Below are positions 58,544 to 63,415 of a stretch of DNA of 64,000 nt, piece after piece. The stretch lies in NCBI RefSeq assembly GCF_023016525.1, contig NZ_JALKCG010000001.1:744001-808000 (forward strand). The letters are read 5' to 3'. Position 1 is the first letter of the stretch. Every line of letters starts with the position of its first letter. Below the pieces are notes generated by a model, which worked only from the letters and a program-made list of their open reading frames with translations, ran no database searches and had not been told where the DNA came from. The stretch comes from Ancylobacter koreensis (lineage in GTDB: Bacteria; Pseudomonadota; Alphaproteobacteria; Rhizobiales; Xanthobacteraceae). Both the position numbers and the translations under genes were made by a program.

Positions 58544-59506
58544 TCAGATCTCGACGTGCTGGGCGATACCCTTCCGCCGGGCGATCTCCACCACGGCGGC
58601 GGCGACGGCGAGGTCCTGAAGCCCGACACCGGTACCGTCGAACAGCGTGACCTCGGCATCCCCGCGGCCGGGCGAATCCCCGTTCACCACGGCGCCGAGC
58701 TCGCCGATGGCCTCCCGTGCGATCAGGCCCTGCGCGATGGCGTGCTGGGTCTCGCCGATGGAGACCGACTGGGCGATCTCGTCGGTGAAGACGCGCGCCC
58801 GCGCCACCAGCGCGGGATCGAGCTCCTGCTTGCCCTGGGTGTCGGTGCCCATCGCCGCAATATGGGTCGGGCCCTTGACGTGGGCGTCCATCAGCAGCGG
58901 CCCGAAGGACGAGGTGATGGAGATGATCACGTCGGCCTCGGCGCCGAGGCGTTCCAGCTCCACCGCCTCGAAGGGCAGGCCGATCTCGGCGGCGGTGTCC
59001 TTCAGCCGGCCCAGCATCTCGGGATGCGGGTTCCAGCCGATCACCTTCTCGAAGGCGTGCACCTTCGCCGCCGCCCGCATCTGGAACGCCGACTGGTGGC
59101 CGGCGCCGATCATGCCCAGCACCTTCGCGCCCTTCGGCGCCAGATACTTGATCGAGACCGCGCTCGCCGCCGCCGTGCGCAGGGCGGTGAGAAGGTTGCC
59201 GCCCACCGCCGCGCTGACGCGCCCCGTATCGGGATCGAAGAGGAACACCGTCGACTGGTGGTTGATCAGGCCGTGGTCCTGATTGTGCGGCCAGTAGCCG
59301 CCGGCCTTCAGCCCGAGCGCGAGGCCCTGCCCGTCGAACCCGCCCTTGAAGCCGTAGAGCGCGTCCGCGTGGCCGATCGCCTCGCGGATGACGGGGAAAT
59401 TATAGGCCTTGCGCCGCGCCATGGCCGCGAACACCGCCTCGATGGCGGTGAACGCGGCTTCCGGCGTCATCAGGCCGGCAATGTCCTTTTCGGCGACGAC
59501 GTACAT
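58544..59506 (-). CDS. bhcD: Iminosuccinate reductase (ornithine cyclodeaminase family)
   Basis: This 320-aa NAD(P)-binding enzyme of the ornithine cyclodeaminase/mu-crystallin family reduces iminosuccinate to aspartate in the beta-hydroxyaspartate cycle. The Rossmann motif VLGMIGAGHQSAFQMRA is at about 126-142, and the family block GTDTQGKQELDPALVARARV follows. The start at 59506 shares a base with the bhcC stop (TGATG). The assignment rests on its place immediately after bhcB and bhcC with lengths equal to the Paracoccus denitrificans enzymes. Confidence 0.82.
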   Translation of the reverse strand: MYVVAEKDIAGLMTPEAAFTAIEAVFAAMARRKAYNFPVIREAIGHADALYGFKGGFDGQGLALGLKAGGYWPHNQDHGLINHQSTVFLFDPDTGRVSAAVGGNLLTALRTAAASAVSIKYLAPKGAKVLGMIGAGHQSAFQMRAAAKVHAFEKVIGWNPHPEMLGRLKDTAAEIGLPFEAVELERLGAEADVIISITSSFGPLLMDAHVKGPTHIAAMGTDTQGKQELDPALVARARVFTDEIAQSVSIGETQHAIAQGLIAREAIGELGAVVNGDSPGRGDAEVTLFDGTGVGLQDLAVAAAVVEIARRKGIAQHVEI

Positions 59507-60681
59507 CAGTAGCCCTTTCCGCGCGCCGAGACCGGCCACACCGCCTCGACCTTGCCGCCGCGCACGCCGACATACCAGTCATGGACGTTGCAGGTCGGGT
59601 CGCAATGGCCGGGCACGAGGCGCAGCTTCTCGTTGACCTTGAGGACGTGATCCTTGTCCTCGATCACCCCGTGCTCGTCGGAGCACTTGATGTATTTCAC
59701 GTCGTCGCGGCCATAGACGAAGGGAAGGCCGGAATCGACCGACTGCGCCTTCAGGCCGGCATCGCACACCGCCAGATGCGGCTTGGCGTGGCTCATCACC
59801 GAGGTGAGGATGAACAGCGCGTTCTCCCACTCGCCCTTGTCTATGCGCTTGCCGTCCTTGTCGTGGATGCGCCCGTAATCGGCGTCCATGAAGGCGTAGG
59901 AGCCGCACTGGAGCTCGTTGTAGACGTTGGAATTCGACTCGAAATAATACGAACCGGTGCCGCCGCCGGAGACGAATTCCGGCTTCAGCCCCGCCGCTTC
60001 CAGCGCCTCGACAGCCTCCCTCACCTGGTTGATGGCGGCGTCGAGCTTCTCCTTGCGCGCCTCGTAGCTGTCGATGTGTTGCATCGCGCCCTGATAGGCC
60101 TGGATGCCCTTGAAGACGAGGTTCGGCGAGGCGGCGGCCGCCTTGGCGATCTCGACCACGGCTTCCTTGGTGGTGACGCCGCAGCGGCCGGCGCCGCAGT
60201 CGATCTCGACGAAGATGCCGAGCTGCGTGCCGTGCTTCTGCGCGGCGGCGGAGATGTCGGCGACATTGGCCACGTCGTCCACGCAGACCGTGACGGTGGA
60301 GCCGAACTTCGGCAGCCGGGCGAGGCGGTCGATCTTGGCGGGGTCGCGCACCTCGTTGGTGACGAGGATGTCCTTGATGCCGCCGCGCGCGAACACTTCC
60401 GCCTCGGCCACCTTCTGGCAGCATACGCCGACCGAGCCGCCGAGTTCTTCCTGCAGCTTCTGCACGTCGACCGACTTGTGCATCTTGCCGTGGCTGCGGT
60501 GGCGCATGCCGTGCGCCTTTGCGTAGTCGCCCATCTTCTTGATGTTGCGCTCGAGCGCGTCGAGATCGAGGATCAGGCACGGGGTCTGGATGTCCGCCTC
60601 GCTCATGCCCGGAACGGCGGGAATGTCGTAGCCGACTTCGAAGCCGGAGAAGTCCGGGGAGATGTCCGTCTTGGCGTTCAT
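59506..60681 (-). CDS. bhcC: Beta-hydroxyaspartate aldolase
   Basis: This 391-aa PLP enzyme of the alanine racemase N-terminal/D-threonine aldolase-like fold condenses glycine and glyoxylate to erythro-beta-hydroxyaspartate. It begins MNAKTDISPDFSGFEVGYDI; the PLP lysine is probably K66 in HRSHGKMHKS, and later motifs include VPGHCDPTCNVHDWYVGV at the metal site (His and Cys). The start at 60681 has GAGGAG 6 bases upstream. The order bhcB-bhcC-bhcD and the start sequence match the P. denitrificans cluster from memory. Confidence 0.84.
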   Translation of the reverse strand: MNAKTDISPDFSGFEVGYDIPAVPGMSEADIQTPCLILDLDALERNIKKMGDYAKAHGMRHRSHGKMHKSVDVQKLQEELGGSVGVCCQKVAEAEVFARGGIKDILVTNEVRDPAKIDRLARLPKFGSTVTVCVDDVANVADISAAAQKHGTQLGIFVEIDCGAGRCGVTTKEAVVEIAKAAAASPNLVFKGIQAYQGAMQHIDSYEARKEKLDAAINQVREAVEALEAAGLKPEFVSGGGTGSYYFESNSNVYNELQCGSYAFMDADYGRIHDKDGKRIDKGEWENALFILTSVMSHAKPHLAVCDAGLKAQSVDSGLPFVYGRDDVKYIKCSDEHGVIEDKDHVLKVNEKLRLVPGHCDPTCNVHDWYVGVRGGKVEAVWPVSARGKGY

Positions 60682-60704
60682 GGGTGTCTCCTCAGTTCCA
60701 AAGG

Positions 60705-61655
60705 TCACGAGTTCCACGGCAGCTTGTCGAGGTCGACATTGCCGCCGGTGATGATGACGCCGACGCGCTTGCCGGCGAAGACGTTCGGATTCTTGATGAT
60801 GGTGGCCAGCGGCACGGCGCTGGAGGGCTCCATCACGATCTTCAGGCGCTTCCAGGTCAGCTTCATGGCGTCGACGATCTCCTCCTCGGTGGCGGTGAGA
60901 ATGTCGGCGACGTGGTTCTGCACGAAATGCCAGGTGAGCTCCTTCAGCGGCACCTTCAGCCCGTCCGCCACCGTCTCCGGCGCATCGTCGGCGATGATGT
61001 GCCCGGCGCGGAAGCTGCGCGCCGCGTCGTCGGCGTTGAGCGGCTCGGCGGCGTAGATCTTCACGGACGGGGCAAGGTTGGAGAGCGTGAGGCAGGTGCC
61101 CGATACCATGCCGCCGCCGCCGATGGGGGCGATCACCGCGTCGAGATTGTCCACCTGCTCGATCATCTCGGCCGAGCAGGTCGCCTGCCCGGCGATCACG
61201 CGCGGGTCGTTATAGGGGTGGACGAACTCGGCGCCGGTCTCGGCCACCACCTCGGCGAACACCGCCTCGCGCGAGGAGGTGGAGGGCTCGCATTCCACCA
61301 CGCGCGCACCGTAGCCGCGCACGGCATCCTTCTTCGCCTGCGGCGCCGTGCGCGGCATCACCACCGTGCAGGGAATGCCCCGGCGCCCCGCCGCATAGCT
61401 CAGGCAGGAACCGTGATTGCCGCTGGAATGGGTGGCGACGCCCTTGGCCGCCTGCGCGTCCGACAGGCCGAACACCGCGTTGGAGGCGCCGCGCGCCTTG
61501 AAGGCACCGGCCTTCTGCAGGTTCTCGCACTTGAAGAACAGCTCCGCTCCGGTGAGCTCGTTGAGCATGCGGGAGGTGAGAACCGGCGTGCGGTGAATAT
61601 GCGGCGCGATGCGTTCGCGCGCCGCGATCATGTCGTCCAGTGTGGGAATATACAT
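60705..61655 (-). CDS. bhcB: Beta-hydroxyaspartate dehydratase
   Basis: This 316-aa PLP-dependent fold-type II enzyme of the threonine dehydratase group removes water from beta-hydroxyaspartate to give iminosuccinate. The PLP lysine is K53 in KAGAFKARGA, with SSGNHGSCLSYAA and the phosphate loop PIGGGGMVSG. It lacks the regulatory domain of biosynthetic IlvA. A strong GGGAGG site stands upstream. The first gene of the cycle, bhcA (aspartate-glyoxylate aminotransferase), is not found before it or elsewhere in the window. Confidence 0.84.
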   Translation of the reverse strand: MYIPTLDDMIAARERIAPHIHRTPVLTSRMLNELTGAELFFKCENLQKAGAFKARGASNAVFGLSDAQAAKGVATHSSGNHGSCLSYAAGRRGIPCTVVMPRTAPQAKKDAVRGYGARVVECEPSTSSREAVFAEVVAETGAEFVHPYNDPRVIAGQATCSAEMIEQVDNLDAVIAPIGGGGMVSGTCLTLSNLAPSVKIYAAEPLNADDAARSFRAGHIIADDAPETVADGLKVPLKELTWHFVQNHVADILTATEEEIVDAMKLTWKRLKIVMEPSSAVPLATIIKNPNVFAGKRVGVIITGGNVDLDKLPWNS

Positions 61656-62023
61656 CGTCCTGCCTCCCGGAACCGGTCACGCGTCCGGCGCGCCGGTGTG
61701 ATGTGCGAGCATTGCCAGCGCCTTGGCAAGGGCCAAGTGGTCCCGTGCGGAAACCGCTCCTGCCATGTGGACAGCGCCGGGTCGGGGATGGCCCGCAGCG
61801 CCTTCCACGCCGGTGGAAGGCGGGCGCGTCCGAGGTGTGGTTCTGCCTGTTCCGTCGCCGGTCATGTGCGGCGATGAGATGCCCTTGCCGGCGCAGCGTC
61901 AACCGATCGCTGGTGGTGCGATGGCGCTCCCGCGTGTCCGCGTCGGCACGGCTCCGCGTCTGCCGGCTGGCGGAGCCGATCCCGCCGGCGGTAAGGTGCT
62001 CACAGGACTGCCGGAGCGGAAAT
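61656..62023. promoter_or_regulatory. 368-bp divergent region between bhcB and a PgtC-like gene
   Basis: No gene is supported here. A perfect inverted repeat, GCCTTCCAC (61800-61808) and GTGGAAGGC (61813-61821), is separated by 4 bp and lies 145 bp upstream of bhcB. It is a candidate operator for the bhc operon, in which control by an IclR-type BhcR is known in Paracoccus, but no such regulator is in the window. Confidence 0.5.
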
Positions 62024-63415
62024 GTGGCTGGAGATCGCGTCAGGAAGGGGCTGCTCGCCGTCGCGCTGTGCGTCGTCGCGCTGTGCGTCGCCGGCTGGGC
62101 GACGGCGTGCGAGGCGCGTCCGCTGCGGGTCGTAACGTCGTTTCCCCCCTCGATGATCGAGGTCTATCGCAAGGGCTTCCAGTCCGCGCACCCGGACATC
62201 GAGGTCGAGTTCGTCCAGCGCAAGACCACCGCCGCCGTGGCCCAACTCGCCGGCGGCGACCGGCTCGACGCCGACCTGTTCTGGGCCTCGGCGCCCGACG
62301 CCTTCGAGCTGCTGAAGCTGGAGGGCCGGCTCTCGCCGCTCGCCCCGCGCACCACCGGCGCGCCCGCCACCGTCGCCGGCTACCCCGTGAACGACCCGGA
62401 CGGCCATTATCTCGGCTTCGCCCTCTCGGCCTATGGGCTCGCGGTGAACGAGGCCTATCTGGCGCGCCATCGCCTGCCGGTGCCGCGCGGCTGGCGGGAC
62501 CTGACGGCGCCGGTCTATGCCGGCCATGTCGGCGTGTCCTCGCCCTCGCGCTCGGGGACGACGCATCTCGTCGTCGAGGCGCTGCTGCAGTCGGAAGGCT
62601 GGGAGCCAGGCTGGCGCACCTGGCGGCAGATCGGCGGCAACCTCGCCACCGTCACCGCGCGCAGCTTCGGCGTCTCGGCCGGCGTGGCGCGCGGGCGTTT
62701 CGGCATCGGCGTCACCATCGACTTCCTCGCCCAGCCGACGGGGCTCGACGCTGACCCGGTGCGCTTCACCGCGCCGGACCCGGAAATCTTCGCGCCCGCC
62801 AGCATCGCCCTGCTGCGGGAGGCGCGGAACCCCGAGGCCGCCGACGCCTTCGTCGACTTCCTGCTGTCGGTTCCCGGCCAGCTCCTGCTGCTCGACCCGA
62901 CGGTGGGCCGCCAGCCGATCCGGCCGGAATTCTACGCCGAGGGGCGGATCGAGGGACCGAATCCGTTCCAGACCGCCGAGAGCGGCGACGGCTGGCGCTT
63001 CGACGCCGGCCGCTCGGCGGCGCGCTACGAACTGATCAATCTGATGTTCGACGAGCTCGTCACCCTGCGTCTCGCCGAGACCGCGGCGATCTGGCGGACG
63101 GTGAACGAGGTGGAGGCGAGCCTGACGCTGGCGCCGGACGAGACGGCCGCCAAGGCGGCGACGCAGGCGCGTAGCCTGCTCGGCGCCGTACCCTTCGGCG
63201 AAGAGGAGGCGAGCCGCATCGTGGAGGCGACGAAGCTGGCGCGCGTGCCGCGCGGGCTGCAGCCGCCGGAGGCGCAGGCGCGGCTGATGGCGCGGCTGCG
63301 CGACTGGATCGGCGACAATCTCGCCGCCGCCAGGCAGGCGGCCGAAACGGCACGCGCGCGGCTGGTCTCGCTCGGGCGGCTGCCGGAACCGGCGACGGGG
63401 AGCGCGTCGCCGTGA
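62024..63415 (+). CDS. Periplasmic ABC-type binding protein with C-terminal extension (PgtC/AfuA-like)
   Basis: This 463-aa exported protein has a signal peptide (RKGLLAVALCVVALCVAGWA) and an iron/phosphoglycerate-type solute-binding domain to about residue 315: RPLRVVTSFPPSMIEVYRKG, GGDRLDADLFWASAPDAFEL and GVSSPSRSGTTHLVVEALLQ. About 145 residues of helical sequence follow, as in PgtC regulators. GTG at 62024 is chosen because GGAG lies 7 bases upstream and the signal peptide begins at once. No permease or ATPase is nearby; instead the next gene is a sensor kinase, with 4 bp overlap, so it probably hands a ligand to the sensor. Confidence 0.82.
   Translation: MAGDRVRKGLLAVALCVVALCVAGWATACEARPLRVVTSFPPSMIEVYRKGFQSAHPDIEVEFVQRKTTAAVAQLAGGDRLDADLFWASAPDAFELLKLEGRLSPLAPRTTGAPATVAGYPVNDPDGHYLGFALSAYGLAVNEAYLARHRLPVPRGWRDLTAPVYAGHVGVSSPSRSGTTHLVVEALLQSEGWEPGWRTWRQIGGNLATVTARSFGVSAGVARGRFGIGVTIDFLAQPTGLDADPVRFTAPDPEIFAPASIALLREARNPEAADAFVDFLLSVPGQLLLLDPTVGRQPIRPEFYAEGRIEGPNPFQTAESGDGWRFDAGRSAARYELINLMFDELVTLRLAETAAIWRTVNEVEASLTLAPDETAAKAATQARSLLGAVPFGEEEASRIVEATKLARVPRGLQPPEAQARLMARLRDWIGDNLAAARQAAETARARLVSLGRLPEPATGSASP

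Follow-up and report, generated by a model that had tools for sequence, protein, structure and literature searches.

Which reactions can a bacterium run if it carries bhcB, bhcC and bhcD of the beta-hydroxyaspartate cycle and lacks bhcA, the gene for the aminotransferase step? The question is raised by a 64,000-nucleotide stretch of the genome of Ancylobacter koreensis, a bacterium of soil and water (G000 in our set; contig C11, positions 744001 to 808000; 4.06 Mb in 19 contigs, completeness 99.31%), which we refer to as the window. We tentatively propose, at somewhat less than an even chance, that the three genes are a functional cassette derived from Paracoccus which runs an open shunt from glycine and glyoxylate to aspartate, with an unlinked enzyme as the supplier of glycine. 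The three genes have the look of a portable module and not of a broken pathway.

The aldolase, dehydratase and iminosuccinate reductase genes are contiguous and co-directional on the minus strand, as the first-pass annotation had claimed, and all three products scored over their NCBIfam equivalog cut-offs (Table 1); the identification of a contiguous bhcBCD set is far beyond chance. That annotation had named a closer similarity to unrelated threonine or ornithine enzymes as a refutation; we examined this and found that the Bhc models scored highest. The runner-up families trailed by a wide margin: ammonia-lyases for hydroxyaspartate/threonine, alanine racemase, and types of alanine dehydrogenase/ornithine cyclodeaminase. 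The runner-up for BhcB, threo-3-hydroxy-L-aspartate ammonia-lyase, reached 361 bits, under its own cut-off of 452, and the best competing families reached 29 bits for BhcC and 178 bits for BhcD. The closest solved structures were 6qkb, a D-3-hydroxyaspartate aldolase, for BhcC (801 bits), 6rqa, an iminosuccinate reductase, for BhcD (610 bits) and serine racemases for BhcB, so the name of the latter rests on the NCBIfam equivalog. The spacing between bhcB and bhcC is 23 nt, and the bhcC stop and the bhcD ATG overlap by one base. The likely ATG starts of bhcC (60681, read from the sequence) and bhcD (59506) lie within longer open frames, 59506-60717 and 58544-59539, which reach GTG codons at 60717 and 59539 respectively. 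We take the GGGAGG motif before bhcB to be ribosome-binding-site-like, judged against the consensus.

Table 1 Features of the bhcBCD locus and the unlinked aminotransferase candidate (positions are those of the window unless a contig is named; TSR, tartronate-semialdehyde reductase).
Feature	Location	Strand	Length	Basis
bhcB, beta-hydroxyaspartate dehydratase	60705..61655	-	316 aa	NF045641, 605.4 bits (cut-off 550)
bhcC, 3-hydroxy-D-aspartate aldolase	59506..60681	-		NF045642, 753.7 bits (cut-off 690)
bhcD, iminosuccinate reductase	58544..59506	-	320 aa	NF045643, 575.9 bits (cut-off 500)
GGGAGG, ribosome-binding-site-like, 7 nt before bhcB ATG	61663..61668	-		sequence reading
Remnant, 3' end of TSR gene, just upstream of bhcB	61689..61744	-	56 bp	
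BhcA-sister class V aminotransferase candidate	C18:9540-10745			462.8 bits (BhcA cut-off 650)

Among 30 Ancylobacter genomes BhcD was over its cut-off in six, all of which carried compact bhcB, bhcC and bhcD; A. crimeensis (G017/G067, locus L092) is one of them. Queries with bhcA and bhcR gave no match in the retrieved stretches around the six cassettes, two of which lie on contigs that begin approximately 120 bp before bhcB. The DNA common to the six coincides almost exactly with the bhcBCD genes (87-96% identity), with approximately 90 bp extra upstream in some pairs, and the flanking genes differ. Two further genomes (G011 and G029) carried bhcC alone at 68-69% identity and were excluded as cassettes. 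In a class-wide sample BhcD was over cut-off in 14 of 385 genomes, at 15 loci, and by coordinates a BhcA over cut-off lay within 4 kb at 11 of these, the exceptions being G000, G278, G314 and G368. A BhcA over cut-off is encoded elsewhere in the genomes of G314 and G368 and G278 has one at 640 bits, leaving G000 as the only one of the 14 without a BhcA-model match of at least 640 bits. The G314 locus (L283) was rejected as a cassette, with bhcD and no bhcB or bhcC in 18 kb. BhcD-like genes below cut-off (44% identity, 370-378 bits) were also seen in G344 (L285) and G422 (L286), each approximately 115 bp from a convergent BhcC-like gene of 29-31% identity; the pairs are possibly a distant relative of the bhcBCD module. 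An Rfam scan of seven loci for riboswitches found only a cobalamin riboswitch (134 bits) in G006, at L079:7546-7756, approximately 4.3 kb past bhcD, and we rejected control of the cassette by a riboswitch.

The absence of bhcA and of the IclR regulator from the window, noted in the first pass, was borne out genome-wide: all matches to Aminotran_5, BhcA and BhcR lay outside C11:744001-808000. A search for bhcA-like genes, suggested at the same time, found no BhcA at the cut-off; over the whole genome the best match to the BhcA model was at C18:9579-10718 (462.3 bits against a cut-off of 650), followed by 38 bits on C1, and BhcA was over cut-off in none of the 30 Ancylobacter genomes. No IclR-type BhcR at cut-off stood beside bhcBCD. 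The best BhcR match in the genome (C12:425648-426436, 313.6 bits against 350; the next was 176 bits on C18) is divergent from the glyoxylate carboligase gene gcl (C12:423491-425227, minus strand) and therefore more likely serves the glycerate-pathway genes. We also considered a bhcA remnant upstream of bhcB and rejected it: four BhcA proteins of Paracoccus, compared by tblastn with the DNA upstream of all six cassettes, gave no match below E ~0.75 among the matches listed, and in the window the 3' end of a TSR gene lies there instead.

A 47-row tree built on the joined BhcB, BhcC and BhcD sequences placed the six Ancylobacter cassettes in one clade (support 100/99) inside 23 Paracoccus rows, and a Paracoccus group without the Ancylobacter six was rejected (approximately unbiased (AU) test: p-AU = 0.0029). 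The 47 rows were drawn from an 84-row tree, from which 6 of 90 loci (L085, L112, L114, L116, L145 and L150) had been left out as incomplete or broken by our filter; P. xiamenensis (L149) was placed elsewhere and is not in the Paracoccus group. Pairwise ratios of nonsynonymous to synonymous substitution rates (dN/dS) among the six were 0.06-0.11 for bhcB, 0.01-0.15 for bhcC and 0.11-0.20 for bhcD, and we therefore consider bhcBCD to be under purifying selection. Judging from the tree, bhcBCD was apparently acquired from the Paracoccus lineage without bhcA. Within the Paracoccus loci L093-L107, the bhcB sequences split in two, one group sharing 73-78% and the other 88-92% identity with that of the window, while bhcC (83-90%) and bhcD (77-88%) varied more smoothly, and gene replacement within the Paracoccus bhc operon is possible on this pattern.

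G000 also has an intact TSR gene, and the remnant is 89% identical to its end (L074 7689-7744). TSR pieces were found directly before bhcB in four of the six cassettes: in the window, in G009, where the copy lacks its middle, and in G006 and G025, whose contigs begin inside the copy. Such a piece was absent in G017 and in G007, which is nested among the TSR carriers in the tree. From these four cases we conclude that a TSR copy probably stood before the cassette at one time, and that G007 changed later. Several Ancylobacter genomes have a second TSR copy with a common upstream gene set (L262-L269), and several assemblies break within TSR (contig ends L270-L280), as if similar copies had collapsed. 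Divergent from bhcB, at 61640-63415 on the plus strand, is a solute-binding protein frame with 117 bits to a 2-aminoethylphosphonate family, below cut-off, and the same plus-strand stretch continues to L074:14215 with a histidine kinase, a sigma-54 response regulator and a second solute-binding protein.

It should be noted that another route of glyoxylate assimilation is encoded in the same genome. Contig C12 carries adjacent genes for glyoxylate carboligase (1177 bits, cut-off 711), hydroxypyruvate isomerase (hyi; 399, cut-off 353) and TSR (408, cut-off 341). TSR was over cut-off in 23 of 30 Ancylobacter genomes, several of the remaining seven showing TSR pieces at contig ends, and gcl was over cut-off in all 30; bhcBCD is therefore accessory, and we rejected it as a replacement for the glycerate pathway. 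A glcD-like gene was also found in all 30 genomes, below cut-off in each (498-528 bits in 29 and 332 bits in G018). In G000 it opens the set of glc genes at C11:545220-550805 (L289:1721-7306), and after it come, in this order, an 8-oxoguanine deaminase gene over cut-off, a GlcE-like gene at 265 bits against a cut-off of 284 and a GlcF gene over cut-off. On this gene content, glyoxylate can probably be made in G000, and assimilated without bhcBCD. Both the serine and the Calvin cycle occur in Starkeya novella, which has been described as close to Ancylobacter (PMC3797975), and the glycerate pathway leads to a C3 product with one CO2 lost per two glyoxylate (PMC11323563).

The first-pass suggestion that an unlinked aminotransferase may close the cycle was upheld in part. 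One candidate exists, on C18; it is below the BhcA cut-off, falls in a separate clade and has the BhcA letter at none of the 30 columns that discriminate the two groups. In a class V tree of 46 of our 112 aminotransferase rows, the C18 protein was placed in a ten-row clade (99/99) which includes the protein of locus L105 (Paracoccus onubensis), apart from a group of 32 rows (99/93) comprising BhcA and five intermediates. The column comparison used 41 rows, 26 of BhcA and 15 of the C18 clade, which 30 columns separated; the clade letter stands at all 30 in the C18 protein and at 29 in the L105 protein. In the five intermediates, 15-22 of the columns show the BhcA letter and 3-11 that of the C18 clade. 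Four basic positions of BhcA (29, 95, 101 and 102 in L095 numbering) are lost in the C18 clade, and of these R102 is the only one that is missing from all five intermediates too. R102, present in 25 of 26 BhcA rows, is leucine in the C18 clade, in all five intermediates and in 6pk1, a structure named serine-glyoxylate aminotransferase (SGA); on this alignment R102 is a candidate aspartate determinant, and no more. An NCBIfam scan of the C18 and L105 proteins gave no family over cut-off. The clade members are L009, L023-L041, L179 and L105, and the neighbours of two others, a short-chain dehydrogenase (L179) and EgtB (L032), do not name the clade. Taking a BhcA-model score of 455-464 bits as the mark of a C18-type enzyme, 21 of 30 Ancylobacter genomes have one, including G000 and four of the five other cassette genomes (G006, G007, G009 and G025). 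The C18 enzyme may make glycine from glyoxylate, and it is our leading candidate for glycine supply in G000.

We also surveyed bhcBCD loci elsewhere, the named loci being the best 80 of at least 567 around the nearest BhcC relatives. bhcA stood directly before bhcB in 72 of the 80; the eight without it were L091, A. crimeensis, L105, L102, L139, L164, L114 and L116, of which L091, starting 118 bp ahead of bhcB, does not allow a judgement. In P. onubensis (L105:7819-12135) a C18-clade aminotransferase occupies the bhcA position, behind a MatC/CitMHS-type transporter gene, and a BhcA over cut-off (767 bits) is encoded at another place in this genome. A DAO-family flavin adenine dinucleotide (FAD) gene was found upstream of bhcB in five of the eight: directly in L102 and L139, 2.9 kb away in L164, and in a RidA-DAO-RidA-bhcB-bhcC arrangement in L114:227-4856 (labelled Spirulina subsalsa, a contig which may be contamination) and L116:6825-12329 (Mesorhizobium sediminum, with bhcD; DAO and bhcD are split). 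The DAO gene of L102 is in pieces, which may be a sequence error, other genes in that genome also being split. The L139 and L164 proteins were over the D-amino acid dehydrogenase cut-off and that of L114 below it. BhcA was over cut-off elsewhere in the L102 and L139 genomes, and not in those of L114, L116 and L164 (best 367, 42 and 590 bits). Of the 72 bhcA-bearing loci, two (L122 and L136) had DAO matches at any place in the retrieved stretch, neither directly upstream, and one more was found in L083, outside the set; the difference between bhcA-less and bhcA-bearing loci (Fisher: P = 5e-5) is descriptive, as the DAO queries came from bhcA-less loci.

Rhodobacteraceae bacterium KLH11 has two bhcBCD loci which share 99.3% identity along 3,251 bp, a stretch that starts just inside bhcB and ends approximately 40 bp past bhcD, one (L141) behind bhcA and the other (L139:7746-12223) behind a D-amino-acid-dehydrogenase-family gene whose end meets bhcB. 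This pair is the clearest sign of bhcBCD moving as a unit and taking different upstream genes. In G368 (L284:2403-11148) bhcBCD, 68, 56 and 62% identical to those of the window, directly follow siderophore-type uptake genes (TonB receptor, periplasmic binding protein, FecCD, ABC ATPase and DUF2218) in one direction. We think it nearly, and not quite, an even chance that bhcBCD is a portable core module turning glycine and glyoxylate into aspartate with interchangeable supply enzymes. On that reading its partners would be BhcA, a BhcA-sister aminotransferase or an FAD amino-acid dehydrogenase with or without RidA, and in Ancylobacter an unlinked supplier.

In the open shunt that we propose for Ancylobacter, BhcC would join glyoxylate and glycine to beta-hydroxyaspartate, BhcB would dehydrate this to iminosuccinate and BhcD would reduce iminosuccinate to aspartate, reactions characterised for the Paracoccus enzymes (PMC11323563; PMC8307300). 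BhcA normally hands the amino group of aspartate directly back to glyoxylate, and this step would be split: glycine would come from glyoxylate through an unlinked enzyme, for which the C18 BhcA-sister aminotransferase leads, and aspartate would pass to oxaloacetate by an ordinary aspartate aminotransferase and drain into the general pool of amino acids. Such a shunt would operate alongside gcl-hyi-TSR and retain carbon which glyoxylate carboligase loses as CO2. We infer the enzyme activities, their direction, the glycine source, the amino donor and the regulation in Ancylobacter; computed are the three families, BhcA below cut-off, the sister-clade aminotransferase, gcl-hyi-TSR, the glcDEF-like genes, the nesting in Paracoccus and purifying selection. 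Paracoccus BhcA also accepts serine as a donor to glyoxylate (PMC9436414), which makes donor changes in the BhcA family reasonable.

Several points weigh against this proposal. The C18 gene is not physically linked to bhcBCD in G000, and the enzyme has no established amino donor. C18-type enzymes do not track the cassette, being found in five of six genomes with it and 16 of 24 without (Fisher: P = 0.64), and co-inheritance of the two was rejected on this result. A. crimeensis has the cassette and neither BhcA nor a C18-type enzyme, its best homologue being a pyridoxamine-pyruvate transaminase (630.7 bits, cut-off 600), and the C18 type therefore cannot be a rule for the genus. Four intermediates have as neighbours a 2-hydroxyacid dehydrogenase (L174), malate-CoA ligase beta (L020) and CitE/malyl-CoA-lyase types (L021 and L022), genes which we take to be serine-cycle markers, only the malate-CoA ligase being over its own cut-off. 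The aminotransferases of these four loci group with BhcA (99/93) and not with the C18 clade, and 6pk1 scored 401.6 bits to true BhcA, 382.6 to the C18 protein and 352.5 to the L105 protein. This grouping sets the C18 clade apart from the serine-cycle SGA type as well as from BhcA, and we rejected an SGA identity for the C18 protein. With that label not upheld, our confidence in the open shunt is slightly lower and that in a closed cycle slightly higher. Finally, the group put to the AU test was named after the 84-row tree had shown the same nesting.

The explanation that survives best beside the open shunt is that the full cycle closes after all, with the C18 aminotransferase, or an unrelated one, using aspartate in the place of BhcA. 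Many aminotransferases of other classes occur in bacteria, no donor is established for the C18 clade, one of its genes stands in the bhcA position in P. onubensis, and BhcA itself is donor-promiscuous (PMC9436414). We nevertheless consider a closed cycle unlikely, if with some chance left to it: the C18 protein departs from BhcA at every discriminating column, including leucine for R102, and a true BhcA lost in an assembly gap is unlikely because BhcA was below cut-off in all six cassette genomes.

The substrate might instead yield both glycine and glyoxylate (glycine with an oxidase, iminodiacetate or other N-carboxymethyl compounds), making an aminotransferase unnecessary. The upstream DAO genes of bhcA-less loci point this way, as do glycine oxidases, which are, weakly, the closest solved relatives of two DAO proteins (51 and 96 bits), and iminodiacetate oxidase gives glycine and glyoxylate (PMC7312458). 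None of the listed structure matches of the DAO proteins was named iminodiacetate oxidase. The DAO contrast is descriptive only, and DAO queries gave no match in the retrieved stretches of the six Ancylobacter cassettes, two of which begin approximately 120 bp before bhcB; for the window we give this explanation a small chance.

Salvage of external beta-hydroxyaspartate from siderophores or exudates, with BhcB and BhcD making aspartate and BhcC splitting the excess, appears improbable. It agrees with the first-pass suggestion that the three enzymes may recycle beta-hydroxyaspartate. Beta-hydroxyaspartate is a siderophore building block, and in one distant genome, G368, bhcBCD follows uptake genes of the TonB/FecCD/ABC type. 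However, none of 12 flanking genes of the Ancylobacter cassettes that we scanned with Pfam was a siderophore uptake component (three each in L074, L076 and L077, one in L078, two in L080 and none in L079), and salvage does not need BhcC, which is nonetheless kept under purifying selection. That the trio is a functionless, decaying leftover of a transferred bhcABCD operon, as the loss of bhcA and bhcR, the differing neighbourhoods and the broken TSR copy in the window and G009 might suggest, is very improbable given three open frames in all six genomes, low dN/dS and the coupled junctions kept in the window.

The cassette of the open shunt resembles the beta-hydroxyaspartate cycle of P. denitrificans (bhcABCD with bhcR) in its BhcB, BhcC and BhcD equivalogs, their order and their nesting in Paracoccus, and differs in that G000 has neither bhcA nor bhcR at cut-off, their best homologues being unlinked and of other groups, and has gcl-hyi-TSR as well. 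Because no BhcA was found at the cut-off we do not class the trio as a member of the cycle, although it may work like it all the same. Among class V glyoxylate aminotransferases the C18 protein is the best BhcA-model match of G000, but it lies outside both the BhcA and the serine-cycle-linked rows. The glycerate pathway, encoded in the same genome, also assimilates glyoxylate, and a TSR remnant is found just before bhcB, but the pathway makes a C3 product where bhcBCD makes C4 aspartate. The FAD dehydrogenase clusters (L102, L139, L164, L114 and L116) share with the window bhcB-bhcC without an adjacent bhcA, with bhcD in four of five; they have an alternative upstream gene where the window has only the TSR remnant.

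The cycle and its enzymes are already known. Of the two known routes of net glyoxylate assimilation it is the one that saves carbon, and bacteria and plants have been engineered to carry it (PMC11323563). We found no description of bhcBCD without bhcA in the literature searched, which excluded most subscription journals and the founding paper, and we do not claim that it is unpublished. Genomes such as G000 would be misread in surveys that take a single gene, for example that of the aldolase, to prove the cycle. Should bhcBCD be able to use another aminotransferase or an FAD dehydrogenase in place of BhcA, these would be natural alternative front ends for engineering. If the module is portable as suggested, the beta-hydroxyaspartate cycle would be one configuration among wider CO2-free routes from C2 to C4, of which some would not be cycles and some might draw on glycine or N-carboxymethyl compounds and not on glycolate. 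If Ancylobacter fixes CO2 through the Calvin cycle, having a route that saves CO2 next to the glycerate pathway would also matter for its glycolate salvage.

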